Of a DNA stretch of 38,649 nucleotides, positions 16,486 to 37,041 are shown piece after piece. The notes under the pieces are model-generated. The model ran no database searches, had not been told where the DNA came from, and was given only the letters and a program-made list of their open reading frames with translations. Each line of letters begins with the position of its first letter. Position 1 is the stretch's first letter. The DNA is from Candidatus Eiseniibacteriota bacterium (lineage in GTDB: Bacteria; Eisenbacteria; RBG-16-71-46), in the NCBI GenBank assembly GCA_025360715.1, contig JANYBS010000007.1:1-38649 (forward strand). The letters run 5' to 3'. The position numbers and the translations under genes are program-made.

Positions 16486-19400
16486 ATGAAACGCCCTCGA
16501 TCCTGCTGCTCTCCGATCATGGCGTGCGCACTCGCGCTGGCGTGCCTCGTGCTCGCGGTGACCACGGCGTGCGCCGATGTCAGCGGGATCCGCCTTCACC
16601 AGATCGCGTGGAGTTGCCGCAGCGGCGATGCGAATACCGCGTTCCTCGAGTTCGAGGCGGCCGCGCCTGGCCAGAGCCGCGACGGCACATTGAATCTCGA
16701 GATCGTGAATGCGCTCGGTATGGTGGCCGCCGACATACCGATCGACTTCGGCTCGCACACCGGCGAGCCGTGGCCCGCCGGCACGACATGGCTGCTCGGC
16801 GGGTCCGCGTTCGCCGCGAAAGCAGGGATCGCGGCTGACGGGCCGCTGCCGAACACACTGCAACGCCAAGCCGGCTCCGTCACACTTTACGTCTACGACT
16901 CGACCGGTACGCGGCTCGACCTGGATCGCCTCGAGTGGGGATCGGGCAGTGGGCTCGTGCGCGCGCCCTACGCGGGACAAAGCCTCGTCCGTGTGGACTC
17001 GGCGACCTATACGCTCCAGCGCGCGCCCAACCCGACTTCGAGTTCCGGAGCGACCGCTGGTGGCGGCTGCTATGGCTATGTGCCCGACTGGAATCTCGGG
17101 CTCGACCAATTGTTCCTGGCATGCGGCAGCGGACAGAAGGGTGCACGCTACATCTCGGTCGCGGCGAGATCGGCTACGACGCTCGACCCGAACGTGCAGT
17201 TGCGCCTGTGGGACTTCCGTGGCAATTCCCTCAGCAGGCTCTCGAATCTCTTCGGCGCCAAGGCCGGCACCACGGTCGCCGCAGGAACGAGATTCCTGCT
17301 CGGCTCTACCGGCTTCCAGAGTGCGACCGGCATGGCGGTCGACCGCACGCTCACACCTCTGCCGGATTCTCTCGGTGGTACCATCACGTTGGTCGGACTC
17401 AACGCCGCGGGTGACAGCGCCACGGTCCTGGACGCGATCGTGTACGGCCTCGCCGGCGCCGCGACCGTCACGACGCCATCTCCCGGGCTGGCCGTGCAAC
17501 ACCAGCCGGACGGGTCCAGCACCACGAATGCGCCGGCCACGCCGCGCAATCTCGCCGGCGCCGTCGGTACCGGCAGCTGCCTGCAGCCGAACGCGAACGG
17601 CCTGCTCGTGCGGATCGGCGAAGTGGGATTCGGCTGCCGCATGGGAACGCCGGGACTCGCGTTCATCGAGTTGCTCTCGCGCGCGGACCAGCCCTACGAC
17701 ACGCGGATCGGGTTGCGCGCCTACAACGCGAGTGGCGCCCTACTGTTCGACATGCCGGCCGTCCTCGCGAATCGCACCGGCACGTTCACGGCCGCGAAGC
17801 GGTACCTGCTGGGCTCGAGCGTCTTTGCGACTCTCACGGGCACGAGCCCCGATGGCGTGCTCGCGGCGGCGCTCGATACCACCGGTGGCGTGCTCCAGCT
17901 CTACGCGTCGGGGTCCGTCCTCCACGAGTTCCGCTACGGCGCAGTACCCGGGGGTCTCGCGCTGCAGCCGCCAGGGGGGAGTTGGGAACTCGACGCGAAT
18001 GATGTCTTCCAACCGCGCGCCGCGGCCACTCCCACGAACAGCAGCGGTGTGTCGGCAAGGGCGACGCCCTGCTACACGGGCACTCCCACCGTGACGCTTG
18101 GTATCCAGGAGTTCGCGAAGAGCTGCTACTACGGCACCCCGGCGACTTCCTACATCGAACTGAGCGGAAGCGGCTTCCTCGATGCGGGCTTCTCTCTCGA
18201 AGTGACCGCAGCCGACGGCCATCTGCTCTACTCGCTCCCACAGTTCACCGCCCCCCTCTACGGCACGTTCCTTTCGAACGGTGGGCACGTACTTCTCGGC
18301 GGGCCGCGCTTCGCGAGCATCGTCGGGCTCACGCCCGATGTCGTGCTTCCGGCCGATCCCGACAGCATGGGAGGCCGAATCCGGCTCGTGCGCACCGATC
18401 CGGTGACGCAGGCGATCACGGTGCCGTCCGAACTCGTCTACGGAAGCGCGGGAGGGCCACTGCCACCGCCCGGCGGCTGTCTGCGATTGCAGAATGGCGC
18501 GGGCCCCTTGGGCAGCCCAGGGTTTGTCGCGGTGAGCACACCTGCGCCGACGAATCGTTTCGGCGTCCTCTCCAATTCGAGTGCGTGCTACCCCTATCGG
18601 CCAAGCACAGCCGTGCGCATCCGCGAGTTCGCCACACGGTGCCGGGACGCGTCGCTGTCGGCGTCCTTCATCTCCCTGGAGTTCACCGCGGACCAGTTGC
18701 TCGATCCCGCGATCGGACTGCGGATCACAGACCATTCGGGCAAGGTACTCACGACGGTCGAGCCGCTCTACGGGCCCGATGTGATACGGCGAGTCTCGAG
18801 TGGCCAGTCGTTCTTGCTGTCGAACGCCGGCGCGTCGACGATCGGCGTGGCTTCCGACATCACACTACCTGTTGCCCTCGATCCGCTCGGCGGCACGCTA
18901 ACGCTCTACGTGCATCCGGTGACATCGGCTTCGAGCACCGACTTCGCAAGCACCGCGTATGCGCCGAACACGCTGATCCCCGCCCCGGATCCCGGAGGCA
19001 GTCTCGCACTCGTGGGAGGCATCGGTGCGCTTCGTGACGTGCCGACGCCGAGCAACCTCGCGGGCGAGACGCCCGGTAGCACCTGCTACGGCGTGCCTGA
19101 TGCGCACGTCTTGCTCTCCGAAGCGGGTTTCGCGTGCGCGGGCGCCACAAGTGGCGGCTACGTCGTGATCGCCACGACGCGTTCAGGCGCCGCGATCGAC
19201 GACCGCATCGGCCTGCGTCTGCGTGATGCCCATGGCGCACTGCTCGTCGACGTGCCGCACGTCCTGCACGCGCTGCTGGGACGAAGCTTCAGCAGTTCGG
19301 GACGCGTGCTGCTCGCGACCACGGGATTCTCGTCGACGAACGGCGTTACGCCCGACGTGTACTTGCCGGTGACGCCAACGACGGACGGCGGCACGATCAC

Positions 19401-22400
19401 GCTCTATCAGCGCGACCCCGTGACTGGCGCTGAGACACGCATTCACGAGCTTGTGTATGGCAGCGCCCCTGGCGGCACACCCGCACCGCCGCCCGGCGGC
19501 GCACTTCTCGCTGCGCCGGATCTGGCATTCCATGCGGTGGACACGCCAACACCCTCGGGCCTTTCGAGCGTGATCGCACAGGGCGCCTGCTTCGGCTATC
19601 AACCACCGCTCGGCCTCGGAATGCACCTCGTGGGCCTCGCTTGCCGCGATGGCTCGCCGGCGTCGTACCTCGAACTGCGTGCAAGGTCGGCGGTATTCGC
19701 CGACACGTTGGTCGGCCTGCGTATTCGAGATGCACATGGCGCATTACTCTCGGAGCTGCGTGACCCATTCGGCGCCGCGGCATGGCAGTCCTTCGCGCCA
19801 GGCCATTCGTGGCTCCTCGCCACACCTGAGGGCGCCACAGCACTTGGGATCCTGGCCGATGCGACTCTGCCTGCGGCGCTCGACACCACGGGCGGCAGCA
19901 TCGCGTTGTTCGTGCATCGCGGCGACGGCAGCGAGACCGCGCTCGACTCCCTGTCGTGGGGCGCCGCGACGACGCTCGGCCGCGTCACGCCCGGAGCGGC
20001 GATCCGGGACGGTCGCTTCACAGTCGCCCTGCCCGATGTGCATGACTCGGCAGGCGCACTCGCGACGTCGCCGTGCATCGGAACACCGACGGTGCGATTG
20101 CATCTCGCCCAGCTCGGGTTTGGCTGCGCCTCCACCGTGACTCGCACGGCCGGGCAGTTCGTCGAGGTGGCGAACGACGATCCGCGCGCCACGCTGCCCT
20201 ATGGCGTCGACTTCACGAGCGGTGACGAGCGGTCTCGCACGCCGATCTTCCGGAATCGTGAGGGCTCGGCTTGGAGCGTCGGCGGACGGTGGCTCGTGGC
20301 CGATGCCGCCTTCTCCACCGTCGAAGCCGGACTCGCGATCGATGACGCGTTCGTGCAGCCGCTCGGGAACATCAGCCCGGCCGAGGTGTTGCGGCTCGAG
20401 CAGACGATCGCACCTCGCTATGCACCGGTCGTGATCGACGAATGGGTGCTTGCTTGCAACGGTTCGTGCAACGGCGCCGGCTATGGCAAATCGCTTGTGC
20501 GTGGAGCCGATGGCGTTTTTGTCGCCGACGCTATTCCGACGATTCGCAACTTCGCTGGAGACTCCCGCGCGGACACCGCTTGTTATAGCGAGGGCGCAGA
20601 CCCGCTCGCGACGCGCTTGCTGGGCTTCTCGCCGGGATGCGCGATCGCTCAAGAGGGATCGAGCTTCGTCGAGCTCTACACCTCGAACGGCCTGCCCGAT
20701 GCGACACTTCGGTTACAGATCCGTGACCATGCGGGCGCGCAGACCGCTGATGTCGGCGGACTCTTCACCGGGCATGAACACGACAACCTCACCGTCGGTC
20801 ACGCGTGGCTCATCGGCACCACGGGCTTCTCGCTGGCCGCGGCGTATGCCGCCGATGTGGAACTACCGATCTCGATCGACCCTGTGGGCGGCCGGGTCAC
20901 GCTCTACCATCCCGCGACCGCGCTGCACGGAACCACGATCGCCTCCGATGTCGCGTGGGGCCCGGGAACATCGCTGCCTGCGCTTCCATGGATGAGCGGT
21001 ATCGTCCCCGGCGTCGGCCTCTCCTACACCTTCGCGCCGAACGCCACGCCGTCGAACTACTCAGGCTCCTCGCTGGTGAGTTGCTGGGGCGATGGAACAG
21101 GCACGCACGCTCCCTACGTCAGCGACCTTGCGCCCACGTGCATGAACGGCGATCCGGGCGTGCGAACGATCGACATGTTCGAGGAGCACGGTCAGTACTG
21201 CATCAATGGTGGCGATTGGTACAACTGCTGGCCAATCGAGTATCCGCCCTCGACGACAGGCCGGCTCGTGTCGCGCGATGTGAGCGGCGCACCTATGGAC
21301 TCCGTCGAGTGGCATTACGGTGAAGCCGGGGGCCTCGAGGGCTTCAGCGGATACTATTTCTTCGGCTCACCACTCGCCGAGGCGCTGCTGCATACGTCGA
21401 CGTTCCTTCCCGCGCCGCGCATCGATCCGCGCGGAGGCCGGATCGAATACAGCACGCTCGATTCGCGGAATCGCGCACTGGGTGTGATCCGGTATCATGA
21501 CGTCGATCCCATGAACTCGATCGCGCCTGCACTTCCGAACGCACAACGCAGCAATATCATCCTAGCGAAATCCTGCCCCCCGTGCGGGCTGACGGATCTT
21601 TGGACCGGTATCCAGCGCGAGTCGCGGACGGTGTATGCCGCGCTCGTCGACACGGCATACGAATCCGATGGCGTGACGCTACACGTGCACGCCGACGCCG
21701 CGAGCGGCATCTTCGCGCTTCAGGCCGCCGACGCCGCGCGCGCGCCTTCGCGGATGATCCAGAGCGACGAGTTCACGCTCCACGGCACGCCGTCCGGCGT
21801 GGAGGTCCCCATCGTCGTGACGCTCGTCGTGCACGCGGCTTTCGGTGGCACCGGCACAACCCCCGCGTACGCGCCGCGGGCGATGCTCGACGTCGCCGGA
21901 TCCGGCGGCTGCACGTTGTGGCATGGCTATCCGGGTATCTCCGGGCGGCCGCTCGACGTCTTCGACACCTTGCGCGTCGCCGTGCGAGCCGTCGCGGACG
22001 TGCCGTTCCGGGTCACGACCCGCCTGAGCTTGGGCGAACCGCGGAACTCGGCGCCGGGATCCTTCGACACGCAGCTCTCATTCGCGAACGTGCCCGCGGG
22101 CGGCGCACTCACAAACTGCCGCGGCTACGGTTCACAGGTCGTGCCGACCGCAATCGCACCACAAAGCGCGAACGCGTTCTCCGACCACGTCGACGTGAGA
22201 TGGGTCGGCGGGCAGGTCGGAACGATGTACACGATCGAGCGAAGCGAGGATGAGGGACCCTGGACCACGCTCTCGACCGCTGTAAGCGACCACAACGGCA
22301 CGATCATACTGCGCGATACGAATGTGCATGCCGGTCGCGACTATGGCTATCGGTTGCGCGCGGGCGACCTCCTGCCCGCGACCGAAACGCACACCCGAAT

Positions 22401-22677
22401 ACCTCTCGCACCCCGCTTCGCACTGAGCTTGGACGGCGCGCAGCCGGTGCGTGACGCGCTCGCCGTTCGCTGCAGCGTACCGGGCGGGCGCCCCGCCGCA
22501 TTGTCGTTGTTCGACGTCGCTGGCCGCAGGCTGGGCGAATGGAGCATCGTGCCGCAGGATGGTGTCGAGCAGCGTCGCATACTGCTCGACGGCTCGGCGC
22601 TGCGCTCCGGTTTGTACCTTGTGCGTCTGCGCCAGGGCGACCGGACGATCCACATGCGGGCGCTCGTGGTGCGGTGA
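16486..22677 (+). CDS. Giant secreted protein: ten ~168-residue repeats, FN3-like domain, FlgD-like C-terminal domain
   Basis: The protein is 2063 residues. A signal peptide (MKRPRSCCSPIMACALALAC to TTACA) precedes ten units between about residues 31 and 1708. Each unit runs: short strand ending in Cys (WSCRSG, FGCRMG, LACRDG), an acidic ExxxR or IEL strand, GLRIRDAHGALL-like strand, LLGxxxF strand, DxxLPxxxDxxGGxIxLY strands, PPGGxL, PTPxxxSG, and a closing Cys (CYG, CFG). About 1710-1880 is a beta-rich region of unclear type. About 1885-1970 is FN3-like (VRWVGG, YTIERSE, YGYRLRAG). About 1977-2063 is the sorting domain (ALSLFDVAGRRL, GLYLVRLRQG, ALVVR). The repeat outline recalls lamin-tail-like domains (uncertain). 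The frame is open to 16312, but ATG 16486 gives the signal peptide and has GGAG upstream. Confidence 0.88.
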   Translation: MKRPRSCCSPIMACALALACLVLAVTTACADVSGIRLHQIAWSCRSGDANTAFLEFEAAAPGQSRDGTLNLEIVNALGMVAADIPIDFGSHTGEPWPAGTTWLLGGSAFAAKAGIAADGPLPNTLQRQAGSVTLYVYDSTGTRLDLDRLEWGSGSGLVRAPYAGQSLVRVDSATYTLQRAPNPTSSSGATAGGGCYGYVPDWNLGLDQLFLACGSGQKGARYISVAARSATTLDPNVQLRLWDFRGNSLSRLSNLFGAKAGTTVAAGTRFLLGSTGFQSATGMAVDRTLTPLPDSLGGTITLVGLNAAGDSATVLDAIVYGLAGAATVTTPSPGLAVQHQPDGSSTTNAPATPRNLAGAVGTGSCLQPNANGLLVRIGEVGFGCRMGTPGLAFIELLSRADQPYDTRIGLRAYNASGALLFDMPAVLANRTGTFTAAKRYLLGSSVFATLTGTSPDGVLAAALDTTGGVLQLYASGSVLHEFRYGAVPGGLALQPPGGSWELDANDVFQPRAAATPTNSSGVSARATPCYTGTPTVTLGIQEFAKSCYYGTPATSYIELSGSGFLDAGFSLEVTAADGHLLYSLPQFTAPLYGTFLSNGGHVLLGGPRFASIVGLTPDVVLPADPDSMGGRIRLVRTDPVTQAITVPSELVYGSAGGPLPPPGGCLRLQNGAGPLGSPGFVAVSTPAPTNRFGVLSNSSACYPYRPSTAVRIREFATRCRDASLSASFISLEFTADQLLDPAIGLRITDHSGKVLTTVEPLYGPDVIRRVSSGQSFLLSNAGASTIGVASDITLPVALDPLGGTLTLYVHPVTSASSTDFASTAYAPNTLIPAPDPGGSLALVGGIGALRDVPTPSNLAGETPGSTCYGVPDAHVLLSEAGFACAGATSGGYVVIATTRSGAAIDDRIGLRLRDAHGALLVDVPHVLHALLGRSFSSSGRVLLATTGFSSTNGVTPDVYLPVTPTTDGGTITLYQRDPVTGAETRIHELVYGSAPGGTPAPPPGGALLAAPDLAFHAVDTPTPSGLSSVIAQGACFGYQPPLGLGMHLVGLACRDGSPASYLELRARSAVFADTLVGLRIRDAHGALLSELRDPFGAAAWQSFAPGHSWLLATPEGATALGILADATLPAALDTTGGSIALFVHRGDGSETALDSLSWGAATTLGRVTPGAAIRDGRFTVALPDVHDSAGALATSPCIGTPTVRLHLAQLGFGCASTVTRTAGQFVEVANDDPRATLPYGVDFTSGDERSRTPIFRNREGSAWSVGGRWLVADAAFSTVEAGLAIDDAFVQPLGNISPAEVLRLEQTIAPRYAPVVIDEWVLACNGSCNGAGYGKSLVRGADGVFVADAIPTIRNFAGDSRADTACYSEGADPLATRLLGFSPGCAIAQEGSSFVELYTSNGLPDATLRLQIRDHAGAQTADVGGLFTGHEHDNLTVGHAWLIGTTGFSLAAAYAADVELPISIDPVGGRVTLYHPATALHGTTIASDVAWGPGTSLPALPWMSGIVPGVGLSYTFAPNATPSNYSGSSLVSCWGDGTGTHAPYVSDLAPTCMNGDPGVRTIDMFEEHGQYCINGGDWYNCWPIEYPPSTTGRLVSRDVSGAPMDSVEWHYGEAGGLEGFSGYYFFGSPLAEALLHTSTFLPAPRIDPRGGRIEYSTLDSRNRALGVIRYHDVDPMNSIAPALPNAQRSNIILAKSCPPCGLTDLWTGIQRESRTVYAALVDTAYESDGVTLHVHADAASGIFALQAADAARAPSRMIQSDEFTLHGTPSGVEVPIVVTLVVHAAFGGTGTTPAYAPRAMLDVAGSGGCTLWHGYPGISGRPLDVFDTLRVAVRAVADVPFRVTTRLSLGEPRNSAPGSFDTQLSFANVPAGGALTNCRGYGSQVVPTAIAPQSANAFSDHVDVRWVGGQVGTMYTIERSEDEGPWTTLSTAVSDHNGTIILRDTNVHAGRDYGYRLRAGDLLPATETHTRIPLAPRFALSLDGAQPVRDALAVRCSVPGGRPAALSLFDVAGRRLGEWSIVPQDGVEQRRILLDGSALRSGLYLVRLRQGDRTIHMRALVVR
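16576..21609 (+). repeat. Ten tandem protein-coding units of about 504 bases
   Basis: Units begin near 16576, 17077, 17599, 18083, 18607, 19102, 19610, 20089, 20602 and 21109, so the mean period is about 504 bases. They are conserved in protein pattern but diverged in DNA, so this is an old expansion rather than recent slippage. Units 1-7 are the most alike; 8 and 10 are the most diverged. At each junction two Cys are separated by 16-18 residues (for example Cys195/Cys213, Cys365/Cys384, Cys529/Cys547). Confidence 0.75.
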
Positions 22678-32124: not shown

Positions 32125-32153
32125 ATGCTGCGGCAGGCACGCGAACGCGTCAA
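32125..32153 (-). promoter_or_regulatory. Candidate promoter of the YncE-like gene
   Basis: On the minus strand, TTGACG (32153-32148), 17 bases, CAGCAT (32130-32125). The -35 box overlaps the stop codon of the gene upstream (32150..33817). The -10 box is poor. Confidence 0.4.
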
Positions 32154-33817
32154 CGCACCACGACGATGCGGCGAATGAGCCGAAGGTTCCCGCAGCCGAC
32201 GCGGGCAAGGTAGAGGCCGGGCGGCGCCATGCGTCCGTGGGCGTCGCGGCCATCCCAGCGCAGCGTACGCTCGCCCGCTGCAGCGTCGGTCGCGGCGGCG
32301 CTCCACGCAAGCCGCCCGGTGGCATCGAAGATCTCGAACGTGACGCGCGCAGGCGTGGGCAGCATGAGCGTCAGCGTCACGCTGCCGTGGCTCGGCAGTG
32401 GCGATGCCGCCGAAAGTCGCAGCGACACTGCGCCCGGCACGACGCTTGCGGCGGGCGCCCAGCGGATGCGGCGCACGTGGTCATCGCCGATGCAGGCCAC
32501 GAGCAGGTCGCCCGTCGCGGGATCCACCACCGAATCCACCGGCCCGTTCATACCGGTCGCCAGCGGGGTGGCGTCGACGAAGTGCTGCAACGCATCGAAG
32601 CGCACGCCGTACATGAAGCCGCGATAGAAATCGCCGATGATCAAGCGCCCTTGCCAGGGTTCGGGAAATGCCGAGTTCACCAGGAACGCGCCCGGCACGA
32701 TGCAGTTGCCACGGACCTGGAATGGCGCGCTGGAATCCGCCGACACGTGGCTGATCGCCAGCACGGGATCGCGCATATCGCCGATGCCGCTGCAGCCGCC
32801 GAACGCCGGTGTGAGCGCCGCGTACGGCGCGCACGCCCGCGCGCCTTCGCGGCACGGCCAGCCGAAGTCGAGGCCGCCCGCCGGCACCACATCGAGCTCT
32901 TCCCACTTCTCCCAGCCCACATCGCCCACGTAGAGCGTGCCGGACTGGCCGCTCGCTGCGCTCACGCCTCCGGTGCCCGGACGCACGGTGAAGCGAAACG
33001 GATTGCGCAATCCGTAGGCCCACACTTTGGAGACCACCGCATCGGGATCGCCATTCCAGAACGGATTGCCCGGCAGGCCGTGGCCAGTGAGCGGATCGAT
33101 GCGCAGGATCTTGCCCGCGGGGCAGTCGAGTTGCTGCGCGCGAAACGCACCGCGGTCCATGGAAGGATCGCTGCGGCCCGCAGCGAACAGGGTGGGATCC
33201 TGGCCGCCGGCATCGACGCGGTCCCAGTGCGCGCCTTCGCCCGCCGAGACGAACAGCGTGCCGTCCTCGCCAAAGCGCAACGCGCCCACGTCGTGCGTGC
33301 CCGACGCGTTCGGGATGCCGCTGTGCCATGACGCGCCCAGCAATACGGTGCGTGTCGCGGGATCGATGCGCGTGGGATCGGACGCGCTCACCTGATAGCG
33401 CACGAGACGGCCGAAATGGACGCTGTCGTCATCGACGCCGTTGGAATCGGGATCGACCGAATACAACAAGAAGATCCGGCGGTCGATCGCGAACGCTGGC
33501 GAGAGTGCCATGCCCAGAAGCCCGCAGTCGCCGTCGATCTCGACTTCGTTCTCGGCGGACCACATGGGTGTGGGCAGTTGTACGCCGTGGTCGATCACCC
33601 ACACGCGGCCGGGCACATCGGCCACCAGCAGCAGCCCGCCCGGCGTGAACGCGAGCGCGACCGGGGCCTCGATGTGGCTGCCGGGGATCGCGTCTTCGAC
33701 GACGAAGCCCTGCGCCGCCTGCGGCGTGCACAGCGGTACGGCCTGAGGAGCAAAAGGCATCGCGGCCGCCGCGCCATGGAGCCACGCAGCGGCCGCGAGA
33801 GTGTGAAGCGCAGACAT
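32150..33817 (-). CDS. Secreted glucose/sorbosone dehydrogenase-like protein with FlgD-like C-terminal domain
   Basis: The protein is 555 residues. Residues about 40-445 match the GSDH/soluble PQQ-dependent glucose dehydrogenase beta-propeller: APVALAFTPGGLLLVAD, GTHDVGALRFGEDG (His175 at the position of the conserved catalytic His), KILRIDP and YGLRNPFRF. The end (about 470-555) is a sorting domain (FEIFDATGRLAW, WDGRDAHG, GLYLARVGCG, IVVVR). It could oxidise sugars with PQQ, but many such homologues lack proven activity. The N-terminus lacks basic residues, so its signal peptide is atypical. The start lies inside GTGATG: ATG 33817 (TGATG with the upstream stop), or GTG 33820. It is a close relative of 33817..36984. 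Confidence 0.85.
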   Translation of the reverse strand: MSALHTLAAAAWLHGAAAAMPFAPQAVPLCTPQAAQGFVVEDAIPGSHIEAPVALAFTPGGLLLVADVPGRVWVIDHGVQLPTPMWSAENEVEIDGDCGLLGMALSPAFAIDRRIFLLYSVDPDSNGVDDDSVHFGRLVRYQVSASDPTRIDPATRTVLLGASWHSGIPNASGTHDVGALRFGEDGTLFVSAGEGAHWDRVDAGGQDPTLFAAGRSDPSMDRGAFRAQQLDCPAGKILRIDPLTGHGLPGNPFWNGDPDAVVSKVWAYGLRNPFRFTVRPGTGGVSAASGQSGTLYVGDVGWEKWEELDVVPAGGLDFGWPCREGARACAPYAALTPAFGGCSGIGDMRDPVLAISHVSADSSAPFQVRGNCIVPGAFLVNSAFPEPWQGRLIIGDFYRGFMYGVRFDALQHFVDATPLATGMNGPVDSVVDPATGDLLVACIGDDHVRRIRWAPAASVVPGAVSLRLSAASPLPSHGSVTLTLMLPTPARVTFEIFDATGRLAWSAAATDAAAGERTLRWDGRDAHGRMAPPGLYLARVGCGNLRLIRRIVVVR

Positions 33818-36800
33818 CACGGAAGTAGCACGAATCGCCGCGTCAGTTCCTGGCCGTTCACGCGCACGCGGGCCATGTACACGCCCGCCGCGGCGCGGCT
33901 ACCCGACGCATCGGTGCCCGGCCACTCGAGCGGCCAGCGGCCTGCGCCCAGGCTGCGCGCGCCCTGATGCCAGACGGCGCGGCCCTGCAGATCGTGGATC
34001 GCCAGATCGACCGATGCTGGCGCAGGCAGTTCGAGCGCAAAGCTCGCGCGGCCCACCGCCGGATTCGGCCAGGCGTTCGAGAGCGCCAGCGCGCGCGGTG
34101 CGCCATCGCCCACCGCCAGCGTCGCCGCAACGCTGAAGCTGAGCGTCGAGGCGTTATTGTTCTCGTTCGTCTCCACGTTCGGGCTCGAGAATCCGGCGTT
34201 CGAGAGCGTATCGAGCACCACTCGCGCCACGTGGTTACCTGCCGCAAGCGGCGCGGGCGAGGCCCACACGAACGCGCAACTGTCGGAGCCCGCCTCGAGC
34301 GTATCGCCCTGCGCCGCGATCGCACCGTCGAGCAGCAGCACCCAGTGATGATAGTGCGACGGCATGCGGCCCAGATTGCGCTCGCGGAATGACAAGACGG
34401 TCGGCTGTGTATTGACCGGATTCGCTGGCGTGAGCGAGATCGGCGACGGCGAAAGATCGATCTCGGGGAAAACGTACACGGAATCGCGAGTGGTGAGGTT
34501 GCCCGTGTCGGTCACCTTGAGCTTCCAGACAAAGTAGCAGCCGGTGCCGTCATCGTGGTTGATCATCACGTACTTGCACGTGGGCAGCGTGGACGTATGC
34601 ACGCTGGGATGGACGTGGTTGTTGTGCTGGATATCGATATCCCAGCGGTATGTGAGCGAAGAATCCGGGTCCTGGTTGTCGTGGACGAGCGCCGAGAAAT
34701 TCAGCGTATCGCCCGCGACCGCGAACGTGGTGTCGGCGCGCTGGATCTGTAAGGTGGGCGGCGTGTTCGTGGTCAGCACCACATCGCCGCCGCCGAAGTC
34801 GTCGATCAGGCTGGAGCTGGCGCCCGTGATCGTCAGGCCCAGGCGCCCACCATTGGCGTTGAAGTCCCAGCCTGAGCAATCGCCAGTGCCCAGTTGCACG
34901 CCGTTCTTGTAGACCACCACCAGTCCTGTGGGGTACGCGCGAGCGCCCAACTGGTCGCCATCCTGCAACGTGCCGGGAATGATCGACGAGCGGCCCACCC
35001 AGCCCTGATTCGGCGAATAGGTGGAGACGAAGAGGCCGCCGGCCTGGCCGTCGTAGCGCACCTCGATGTGTCCGGTGTCCCAACTCAGCCCTTGCACCTT
35101 GAGCATGAGGTTGTGCTCGGGCGCGTTGGGCGTCATGCGCGCGATGCGCACGAACGCCTCCTGGGTGGGCCCGAACGGGGCGGTGCCGAGCACGAGCGAA
35201 TTGCTCAGGCTGATCTGCTGCAACTGCCCGCTCACGATCTGCAAGCCGGTGATGTCGCCCGCCCACAGGCCGCCGATCGGGCCGTTCGCACGCTCGAAGT
35301 CGTCGAGCACGCCGGTCGTGGGGAAGTTCGATGAGACTGCGACCGAGATACTCATCGAGACACTCGTCACGCCGCCGTTGTGATCGTCGACCGTGAGGGT
35401 GGCCGTGTATTCACCCGGGATCGTATAGAGGTGTGTGGGATTCAGCAGCGGCGAACCCGTGCCGTCGCCAAAGTTCCAACTGTAGGCCAGTGAATCGCCG
35501 TTGGAATCGTACGTTCCAGCGCTCGTGAAGTTCACCGTGAGCGGCGCGACGCCCACGTCGGGAAGCGCTTTGCCCTTGGCCACCGGCGGCAGGTTGCCGC
35601 CGCTGCCACCACCGATCCAGCGGATACGGCGGATCTGGCCGGTGTAGATCGACACATAGACGATGTCGCCCGTGAACGGATCGACGGTCATGTCGACCGG
35701 ACCTTCGACTTGGTCGGCGAAGTCCGTGATCGAGACCAGGTTCCCGAGCGTGTCGATGTCGGCGATCTTGATCCAGTTCTGGCCGAAGTCGATCGCGTAG
35801 TATTTGTTGCGGAACTGAGTCGGATAAAGGGTGCCGCTGTAGAACGTCCCGCCCAGCGCGGTATTGCCGACACCGAACTGCGGCGTCGACAAGCCAACGG
35901 TCGTGTGGTGCGTGATGATGGGCGCGGTCGTGAATGTCGTCGCGGGATTGCGCGACGTACCCAGTGAGTCACACAGCCAGCGTTGCGACTGCGGCAGCCC
36001 GCCGTACTGTTGGGTGGGCATTAGGCCCTCGTAGCACGGCCAGCCGAAGTTCTCGCCGCCATGCGCGGACACGTTGTGCTCCTCGTACGTGTACCAACCC
36101 ACGTCGCCGATCATGAGTTCGCCGGGCTTGCCCGCAGCGGCATTCGGATTGCCTGTACCGGGCCGCACCGTGAAGCGGAACGGATTGCGCAGGCCGTACA
36201 CATAGACTCGCGAACGCACCGACACAGGATTCCCGTCCCAGTACGGATTACTGGGCACGCCATGGCCGTTGCTCGGGTCCAAGCGCAGGATCTTGCCGCA
36301 GAGGCTGTTGATGAGTTGCGAACGATAGGCGCCGATGTCCTCGGTGATCGCCGTGCGGCCGGGAAGGAACGCGTTCGGGTTGTTGCCACCACCGTCCACG
36401 TAGTCGAACTGCGCGCCGTCGCCCATGGACGCCAGCAGCATGCCATCATTGCCAAAGCGCAGCGCGCCGATCGTGTGCGACGGCGAGGAGATCAGCGGCC
36501 CGTGCGCCCAGTCGGTGCCGAGCAACACCATGCGGCTGCCCGGGACGAGCTGCGTGCTGTCGGCGAAACTCACCTGGTAGCGGACGATGCGGCCGAAGGC
36601 CTCGGGCGATGTGTCCAGGCCTGCGGAATCCGGGTCCACCGTGTACATGAGATATACATAGTGATTCTGCGCATAGTGGGGATCGACCGTCAGCCCCAGG
36701 AAGCCGCGGTCGTGCTGATCGAGCACCTCCATGCGGCCATCCCAGATGGGGAACGCATCGCGGACGCCATTGGTGACGCCCCAGAGCCGGCCCGCCTTCT

Positions 36801-36984
36801 CGGCGACGAACATGCGGCCGGTCGGCGTGAACGCGATCGCGGTCGGAGTGTCGAACTGCGTGCTGGGCACGACAGAGTCCACGGTGAAACCCTGCGGCAC
36901 GTTGATCGCGAAGGCACTCCCCACGCACGCGATGAGCGCGACGAACATCGTGGAAAGCATCAGACGAATGGCACGAACGGACAA
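33817..36984 (-). CDS. Multidomain secreted GSDH-like protein: PKD, concanavalin-like, CARDB-like and sorting domains
   Basis: The protein is 1055 residues. The start is TTG at 36984, because the strong GGAGGT lies 6 bases before it and inside the longer frame that begins at GTG 37005. A signal peptide (VRAIRLMLSTMFVALIACVG to SAFA) is followed by the GSDH propeller (about 30-465; His170 in SHTIGALRFGNDG; YGLRNPFRF), a PKD domain (about 470-555; NFGDGTGSP, YTATLTVDDH), a concanavalin-like region (about 560-715; DDFERANGP), a second PKD-like stretch (about 730-840), a CARDB-like domain (about 850-960; NETNENNN-type motif) and a sorting domain (about 970-1055; LAIHDLQGRAV). Enzyme activity is uncertain. 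The stop overlaps the start of its paralogue (TGATG), so both are made together. Confidence 0.88.
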   Translation of the reverse strand: MSVRAIRLMLSTMFVALIACVGSAFAINVPQGFTVDSVVPSTQFDTPTAIAFTPTGRMFVAEKAGRLWGVTNGVRDAFPIWDGRMEVLDQHDRGFLGLTVDPHYAQNHYVYLMYTVDPDSAGLDTSPEAFGRIVRYQVSFADSTQLVPGSRMVLLGTDWAHGPLISSPSHTIGALRFGNDGMLLASMGDGAQFDYVDGGGNNPNAFLPGRTAITEDIGAYRSQLINSLCGKILRLDPSNGHGVPSNPYWDGNPVSVRSRVYVYGLRNPFRFTVRPGTGNPNAAAGKPGELMIGDVGWYTYEEHNVSAHGGENFGWPCYEGLMPTQQYGGLPQSQRWLCDSLGTSRNPATTFTTAPIITHHTTVGLSTPQFGVGNTALGGTFYSGTLYPTQFRNKYYAIDFGQNWIKIADIDTLGNLVSITDFADQVEGPVDMTVDPFTGDIVYVSIYTGQIRRIRWIGGGSGGNLPPVAKGKALPDVGVAPLTVNFTSAGTYDSNGDSLAYSWNFGDGTGSPLLNPTHLYTIPGEYTATLTVDDHNGGVTSVSMSISVAVSSNFPTTGVLDDFERANGPIGGLWAGDITGLQIVSGQLQQISLSNSLVLGTAPFGPTQEAFVRIARMTPNAPEHNLMLKVQGLSWDTGHIEVRYDGQAGGLFVSTYSPNQGWVGRSSIIPGTLQDGDQLGARAYPTGLVVVYKNGVQLGTGDCSGWDFNANGGRLGLTITGASSSLIDDFGGGDVVLTTNTPPTLQIQRADTTFAVAGDTLNFSALVHDNQDPDSSLTYRWDIDIQHNNHVHPSVHTSTLPTCKYVMINHDDGTGCYFVWKLKVTDTGNLTTRDSVYVFPEIDLSPSPISLTPANPVNTQPTVLSFRERNLGRMPSHYHHWVLLLDGAIAAQGDTLEAGSDSCAFVWASPAPLAAGNHVARVVLDTLSNAGFSSPNVETNENNNASTLSFSVAATLAVGDGAPRALALSNAWPNPAVGRASFALELPAPASVDLAIHDLQGRAVWHQGARSLGAGRWPLEWPGTDASGSRAAAGVYMARVRVNGQELTRRFVLLP

Positions 36985-37041
36985 CGGACGACCTCCGAAG
37001 GTCACGGGGGGAGAGCCAAGCTGGGTCGGTCGGAACGTGGC

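Follow-up and report, generated by a model that had tools for sequence, protein, structure and literature searches.

Lamin tail domains (LTDs; Pfam PF00932) are found in bacterial as well as nuclear proteins, and the occurrence of several tandem LTDs in one bacterial protein was noted by Mans et al. (2004; cited in PMC6085458). The role of the domain is unresolved, although targeting to membranes or membrane-associated structures has been suggested (PMC6085458). Here we describe a gene from a Candidatus Eisenbacteria genome, located in a 38,649-nucleotide stretch of contig JANYBS010000007.1 (the window), whose product, P0001, resembles bacterial PF00932 proteins in its profile similarity across most of the domain, in its order of motifs and in its predicted extracellular setting. 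It differs from them in that its units are missed by the Pfam model and are about 168 aa long as compared to 109 model positions, in that nearly every unit of this type carries a cysteine after the first strand and another at its end, and in that P0001-type proteins chain ten to twelve copies into 2000 aa or more. ExeM of Shewanella oneidensis is likewise an extracellular protein with a lamin tail domain, but has one N-terminal LTD together with nuclease domains (PMC6085458), whereas a search of the whole of P0001 against Pfam returns nothing but a sub-threshold sorting tail, with no enzymatic domain.

The gene runs from an ATG at 16486 to a stop at 22677 and codes for 2063 aa. The frame is already open from 16312, and the start was put at 16486 because the signal peptide position fits there; a basic n-region is followed by a hydrophobic core and small residues at the cleavage site. 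Codon-position G+C (0.66/0.57/0.79) agrees with the forward frame and with the neighbouring genes; open reading frames antisense to the gene were dropped, as codon-position G+C there mirrors the coding pattern of those genes. With a repeat HMM, precisely ten units of some 162–172 aa are recognised between residues 27 and 1700 (Table 1), so that the 2063-residue protein of ten repeats described in an earlier note on this DNA is borne out. Beyond the repeats there is a segment that starts in a CPPC motif (1697/1700) and ends at Cys1878, with both positions kept in the paralogues, and that matches no family in a Pfam scan. Of the FN3-like and sorting domains also assigned earlier, the first is recognised by reading, with no Pfam match, and the second is a weak match (18.3 bits).

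Table 1. Features of the P0001 gene, with positions numbered from the first nucleotide of the window.
Feature	Residues	Position	Strand	Cysteines and remarks	Basis
P0001 gene		16486..22677	+	signal peptide, ten lamin-tail-like units, Cys-bounded segment, FN3-like segment, T9SS-like sorting tail	ORF, repeat HMM, codon-position G+C
Signal peptide	about 1-29/30	16486..16572	+		direct reading
Unit 1	30-195	16573..17070	+	Cys44, Cys195	repeat HMM, Cys list
Unit 2	196-365	17071..17580	+	Cys213, Cys365	repeat HMM, two-unit AF2 model
Unit 3	366-529	17581..18072	+	Cys384, Cys529	repeat HMM, two-unit AF2 model
Unit 4	530-701	18073..18588	+	Cys547, Cys701; extra Cys665	repeat HMM, Cys list
Unit 5	702-867	18589..19086	+	Cys719, Cys867	repeat HMM
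Unit 6	868-1035	19087..19590	+	Cys884, Cys1035; AF2-modelled singly, pLDDT 87.7	repeat HMM, AF2
Unit 7	1036-1197	19591..20076	+	Cys1053, Cys1197	repeat HMM
Unit 8	1198-1366	20077..20583	+	Cys1214, Cys1366; local Cys1324/1328	repeat HMM, Cys list
Unit 9	1367-1533	20584..21084	+	Cys1385, Cys1533	repeat HMM
Unit 10, divergent	1534-1697	21085..21576	+	Cys1552, Cys1697; local Cys1572/1581	repeat HMM, Cys list
Segment	1698-1878	21577..22119	+		direct reading of P0001 and paralogues, Pfam scan
FN3-like segment and T9SS-type-A-like sorting segment	about 1884-1980; 2001-2057	22120..22674	+	TIGR04183 below cut-off	TIGR04183

The relationship of the units to LTDs is evident from profiles rather than from direct family assignment. 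PF00932 matches none of 49 units (those of P0001 and four homologues, described below) at E-values up to 10, with no plausible match to another Pfam family, and a PF00932 search of the same genome places five regions above the cut-off, all of them outside P0001. Searching the same taxonomic family with a profile of the unit gives weak matches in other proteins (E 1e-9 to 1e-4), and seven of the eight matched proteins that were scanned carry a Pfam LTD; in five of these seven the highest-scoring Pfam stretch spans the same residues as the unit-profile match, and in L045 and L046 it is a second LTD further on. Profile–profile comparison by hhalign gives a probability of 96.4 (E 1.2e-9) against the LTDs found with the unit profile, and 91.4 (E 9.1e-7) against the five LTDs of the same genome, a set that escapes the circularity of the first because it was picked by Pfam alone. 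The units and the LTDs also share an order of motifs that extends from the first strand to a P-x-P tail.

Structural comparison points in the same direction more weakly. An AlphaFold2 model of one unit with its flanks, built from a 15-row alignment of P0001 and L081 (a five-unit relative) sequences only, has a pTM of 0.81 and a pLDDT of 87.7, with nine strands and one helix; confidence is low at the very start of the chain and just past the end cysteine. The most probable of the Foldseek matches listed for this model is the mouse nuclear lamin tail 1ufg (probability 0.99; TM 0.39/0.49; E 0.029), although several other beta folds outrank it by E-value and none of the listed matches has an E-value below 0.001; a sequence search of the PDB with the unit profile gave one chance-level match only. 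These E-values, together with the failure of direct Pfam scans on 49 units, are what might be expected if the units were an unrelated beta-sandwich that had converged on the outline of a lamin tail, but this seems unlikely given the profile–profile match to LTDs picked independently of the query, the coincidence of unit-profile and Pfam matches on the same residues, and the common order of motifs. We conclude that the P0001 units are divergent relatives of LTDs and not formal members of PF00932, and the previous description of them as lamin-tail-like only in outline was an understatement.

In the same taxonomic family, the ordinary LTD proteins (L045–L048, L050, L053 and L085) have cysteines of their own, mostly a conserved one just before the first strand (e.g. 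CAPP) and mostly a second, in an EYxCG motif, after the last strands of the domain; these are possibly a different staple of the same fold.

The boundaries between the P0001 units are marked by nine cysteine pairs (195/213, 365/384, 529/547, 701/719, 867/884, 1035/1053, 1197/1214, 1366/1385 and 1533/1552). Nine is also the number of pairs spaced at i,i+17 to i,i+19, whereas 20,000 shuffled sequences average 1.2 such pairs and never exceed 7, and the regular spacing that had been reported, including every pair quoted, is thus confirmed; the spacing alone does not decide which cysteines pair. To the earlier note it suggested that one disulphide spans each junction (Cys-x16-18-Cys), which would lock each unit to the next and make the stalk rigid or ratcheted, and the short, regular spacing and the position of both cysteines near the unit boundary are consistent with this. 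Such spacing follows equally, however, from an end cysteine followed by a short linker and by a first strand whose length hardly varies. Each unit has one cysteine following its first strand and another at its end, and in an alignment of 15 units (from P0001 and the five-unit relative) these two are the only invariant columns. Cys44 of unit 1 is a post-strand cysteine with no junction partner in mature P0001, and Cys1697 of unit 10 is an end cysteine with no unit after it, so that pairing over the junctions leaves both of them unpaired, as it does the corresponding residues of the five-unit relative, in which start and end cysteines each number exactly five. Pairing the two cysteines given for each unit in Table 1 leaves no conserved cysteine over, and terminal units need no junction partner because each unit has its own start and end cysteine.

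Comparison across homologues distinguishes these arrangements. The sample comprises 49 units and 44 junctions in five homologous proteins: P0001, three paralogues in the same genome (L009, L010 and L011, with 10, 12 and 12 units) and the five-unit relative (L012, the same protein as L081). Scored as both present, first only, second only and neither, the two cysteines of a unit give 44/1/0/4 over the 49 units and the two at a junction give 38/1/5/0 over the 44 junctions, six of which are discordant. The within-unit table has a Fisher value of 2.4e-5, in which the paralogues are not independent. All three paralogues lack both cysteines in unit 1, where the sites read GWATRAG or GWSDRAG at the start and ISYGY, IGYGY or TAYGY at the end, and retain both in unit 2; unit 9 of L009 (contig C19) also lacks both while the adjoining units retain theirs. 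The sole within-unit discordance is unit 11 of the paralogue on contig C210, which has the first cysteine and lacks the second. The absences in unit 1 concern three paralogous genes and probably go back to one event, so that the support amounts to about two independent co-losses. The two cysteines of one unit are therefore kept or lost together and those of a junction are not, and the proposal of one disulphide per junction is not supported by this evidence.

The stalk fares no better in structure prediction. Units 2 and 3 modelled together with AlphaFold2 give a pLDDT of 85.0 and a pTM of 0.54, which we take to mean that each domain is well defined and that their placement with respect to one another is undefined in the model; this does not prove flexibility, nor does it back rigidity, and a pTM of 0.54 therefore lends no support to a rigid junction. 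Taken with the covariation and the partnerless terminal cysteines, it makes locking across the junctions improbable. It is also improbable that the cysteines are mostly unpaired or have another chemical role, for instance in binding a metal or in linking one fibre to the next, since, although isolated extra cysteines occur in the paralogues and the bond within the unit is itself something that we infer, the strict one-plus-one content of the units and its joint loss agree with a bond inside a secreted domain, and no CxxCH or similar metal-site motif was seen on reading these positions.

The C-terminal tail of P0001 resembles the sorting domain of TIGR04183 (T9SS type A) proteins and scores 18.3 to 18.8 bits against this model, below its cut-off of 23, whereas that of the five-unit relative scores 27.5 bits and is above it. 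The tail region recurs at about twenty other places in the genome, which also encodes a member of the SprA family TIGR04189 (396.3 bits; cut-off 200) and has Peptidase_C25 at four places. The Peptidase_C25 family includes the PorU sortase. Export of P0001 by a type IX route with attachment to the surface is plausible because of the signal peptide, the sorting-like tail, SprA, C25 and the recurrence of the tail. The former view of P0001 as a long cell-surface fibre is supported insofar as it is a long, secreted and probably surface-attached repeat protein; we infer its role as a fibre or in adhesion, as we do its attachment and the formation of the disulphides.

Two other regions of the window contain genes that may be noted here. 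The gene directly upstream of P0001 (14970–16307, forward strand) encodes HAF repeats (TIGR02913, six stretches) and a T9SS sorting tail above the cut-off (32.1 bits), and judging from these matches its product is a probable second type IX cargo adjoining P0001. The adjoining reverse-strand genes at 32150–33820 and 33817–37005 encode proteins that resemble glucose/sorbosone dehydrogenases; both have a FlgD-like C-terminal domain and one of them also has PKD.

P0001-type arrays are patchily distributed. A related-locus search with the whole of P0001 found no relative, and a search with a six-unit subset found one, the five-unit protein, in a Ca. Eisenbacteria MAG. Repeats at E 1e-9 or better are present in two of 47 genomes of the phylum (the source genome and a genome from a second genus of the same family), four genomes of the same genus have no such repeats, and the 47 contain in addition two weak single-domain matches; a wider sample of 385 genomes yielded one further weak single-domain match, in the same family. 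Single-domain relatives from other genomes of the phylum (L043, L044, L071 and L072) match the unit profile, with E-values of 7.5e-12 to 1e-9 for L071, L072 and L043. They start roughly with FHxMxIxQ and by eye have no cysteine at the start position of the unit; L043 has no LTD match in a Pfam scan.

Units within one protein are mostly 24–40% alike, and units in the same position are mostly best matches between paralogues (48–74% for unit 1), which argues that the array was already long before the gene was duplicated. An exact overlap of 141 bases between the end of C19 (reverse strand) and the beginning of contig C169 places L009 and L010 head to tail, and the first bases of contig C210 lie within the signal peptide of the third giant paralogue. 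Because of this overlap and this truncation, the paralogues are likely to form a tandem cluster that was broken by the assembler.

We therefore favour, with a probability of about 0.75, the reading that P0001 is an exported fibre of ten divergent lamin-tail-like domains, each with its own disulphide, that uses a type IX-like route. Ten tandem beta-sandwich domains of this kind would make up a cell-surface or extracellular fibre in which one disulphide per domain would join the cysteine just after the first strand to that at the C-terminal end. Closed by its own disulphide, each domain would be stabilised singly, and the linkers joining the domains would be short and not demonstrably rigid. P0001 would be exported first by Sec and then by a type IX-like route via its C-terminal sorting tail, and the N-terminal array would then serve as a spacer, an adhesive or a matrix fibre.

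The P0001 units extend the lamin tail domain family past the reach of its Pfam model, and one staple per domain would be a simple way to stabilise a long exported array. They also suggest that giant repeat proteins may be exported by a type IX system in an uncultured phylum. More tentatively, P0001 and its relatives could be lineage-restricted giant fibres of Ca. Eisenbacteria, in which disulphide-stapled lamin-tail-like domains missed by Pfam have been amplified in tandem and exported by a type IX system as an adhesin or matrix scaffold. Because their distribution is patchy, with four genes in the P0001 genome, a single gene in a different genus and none in four genomes of the same genus as P0001, these proteins may represent a strain-level surface trait.
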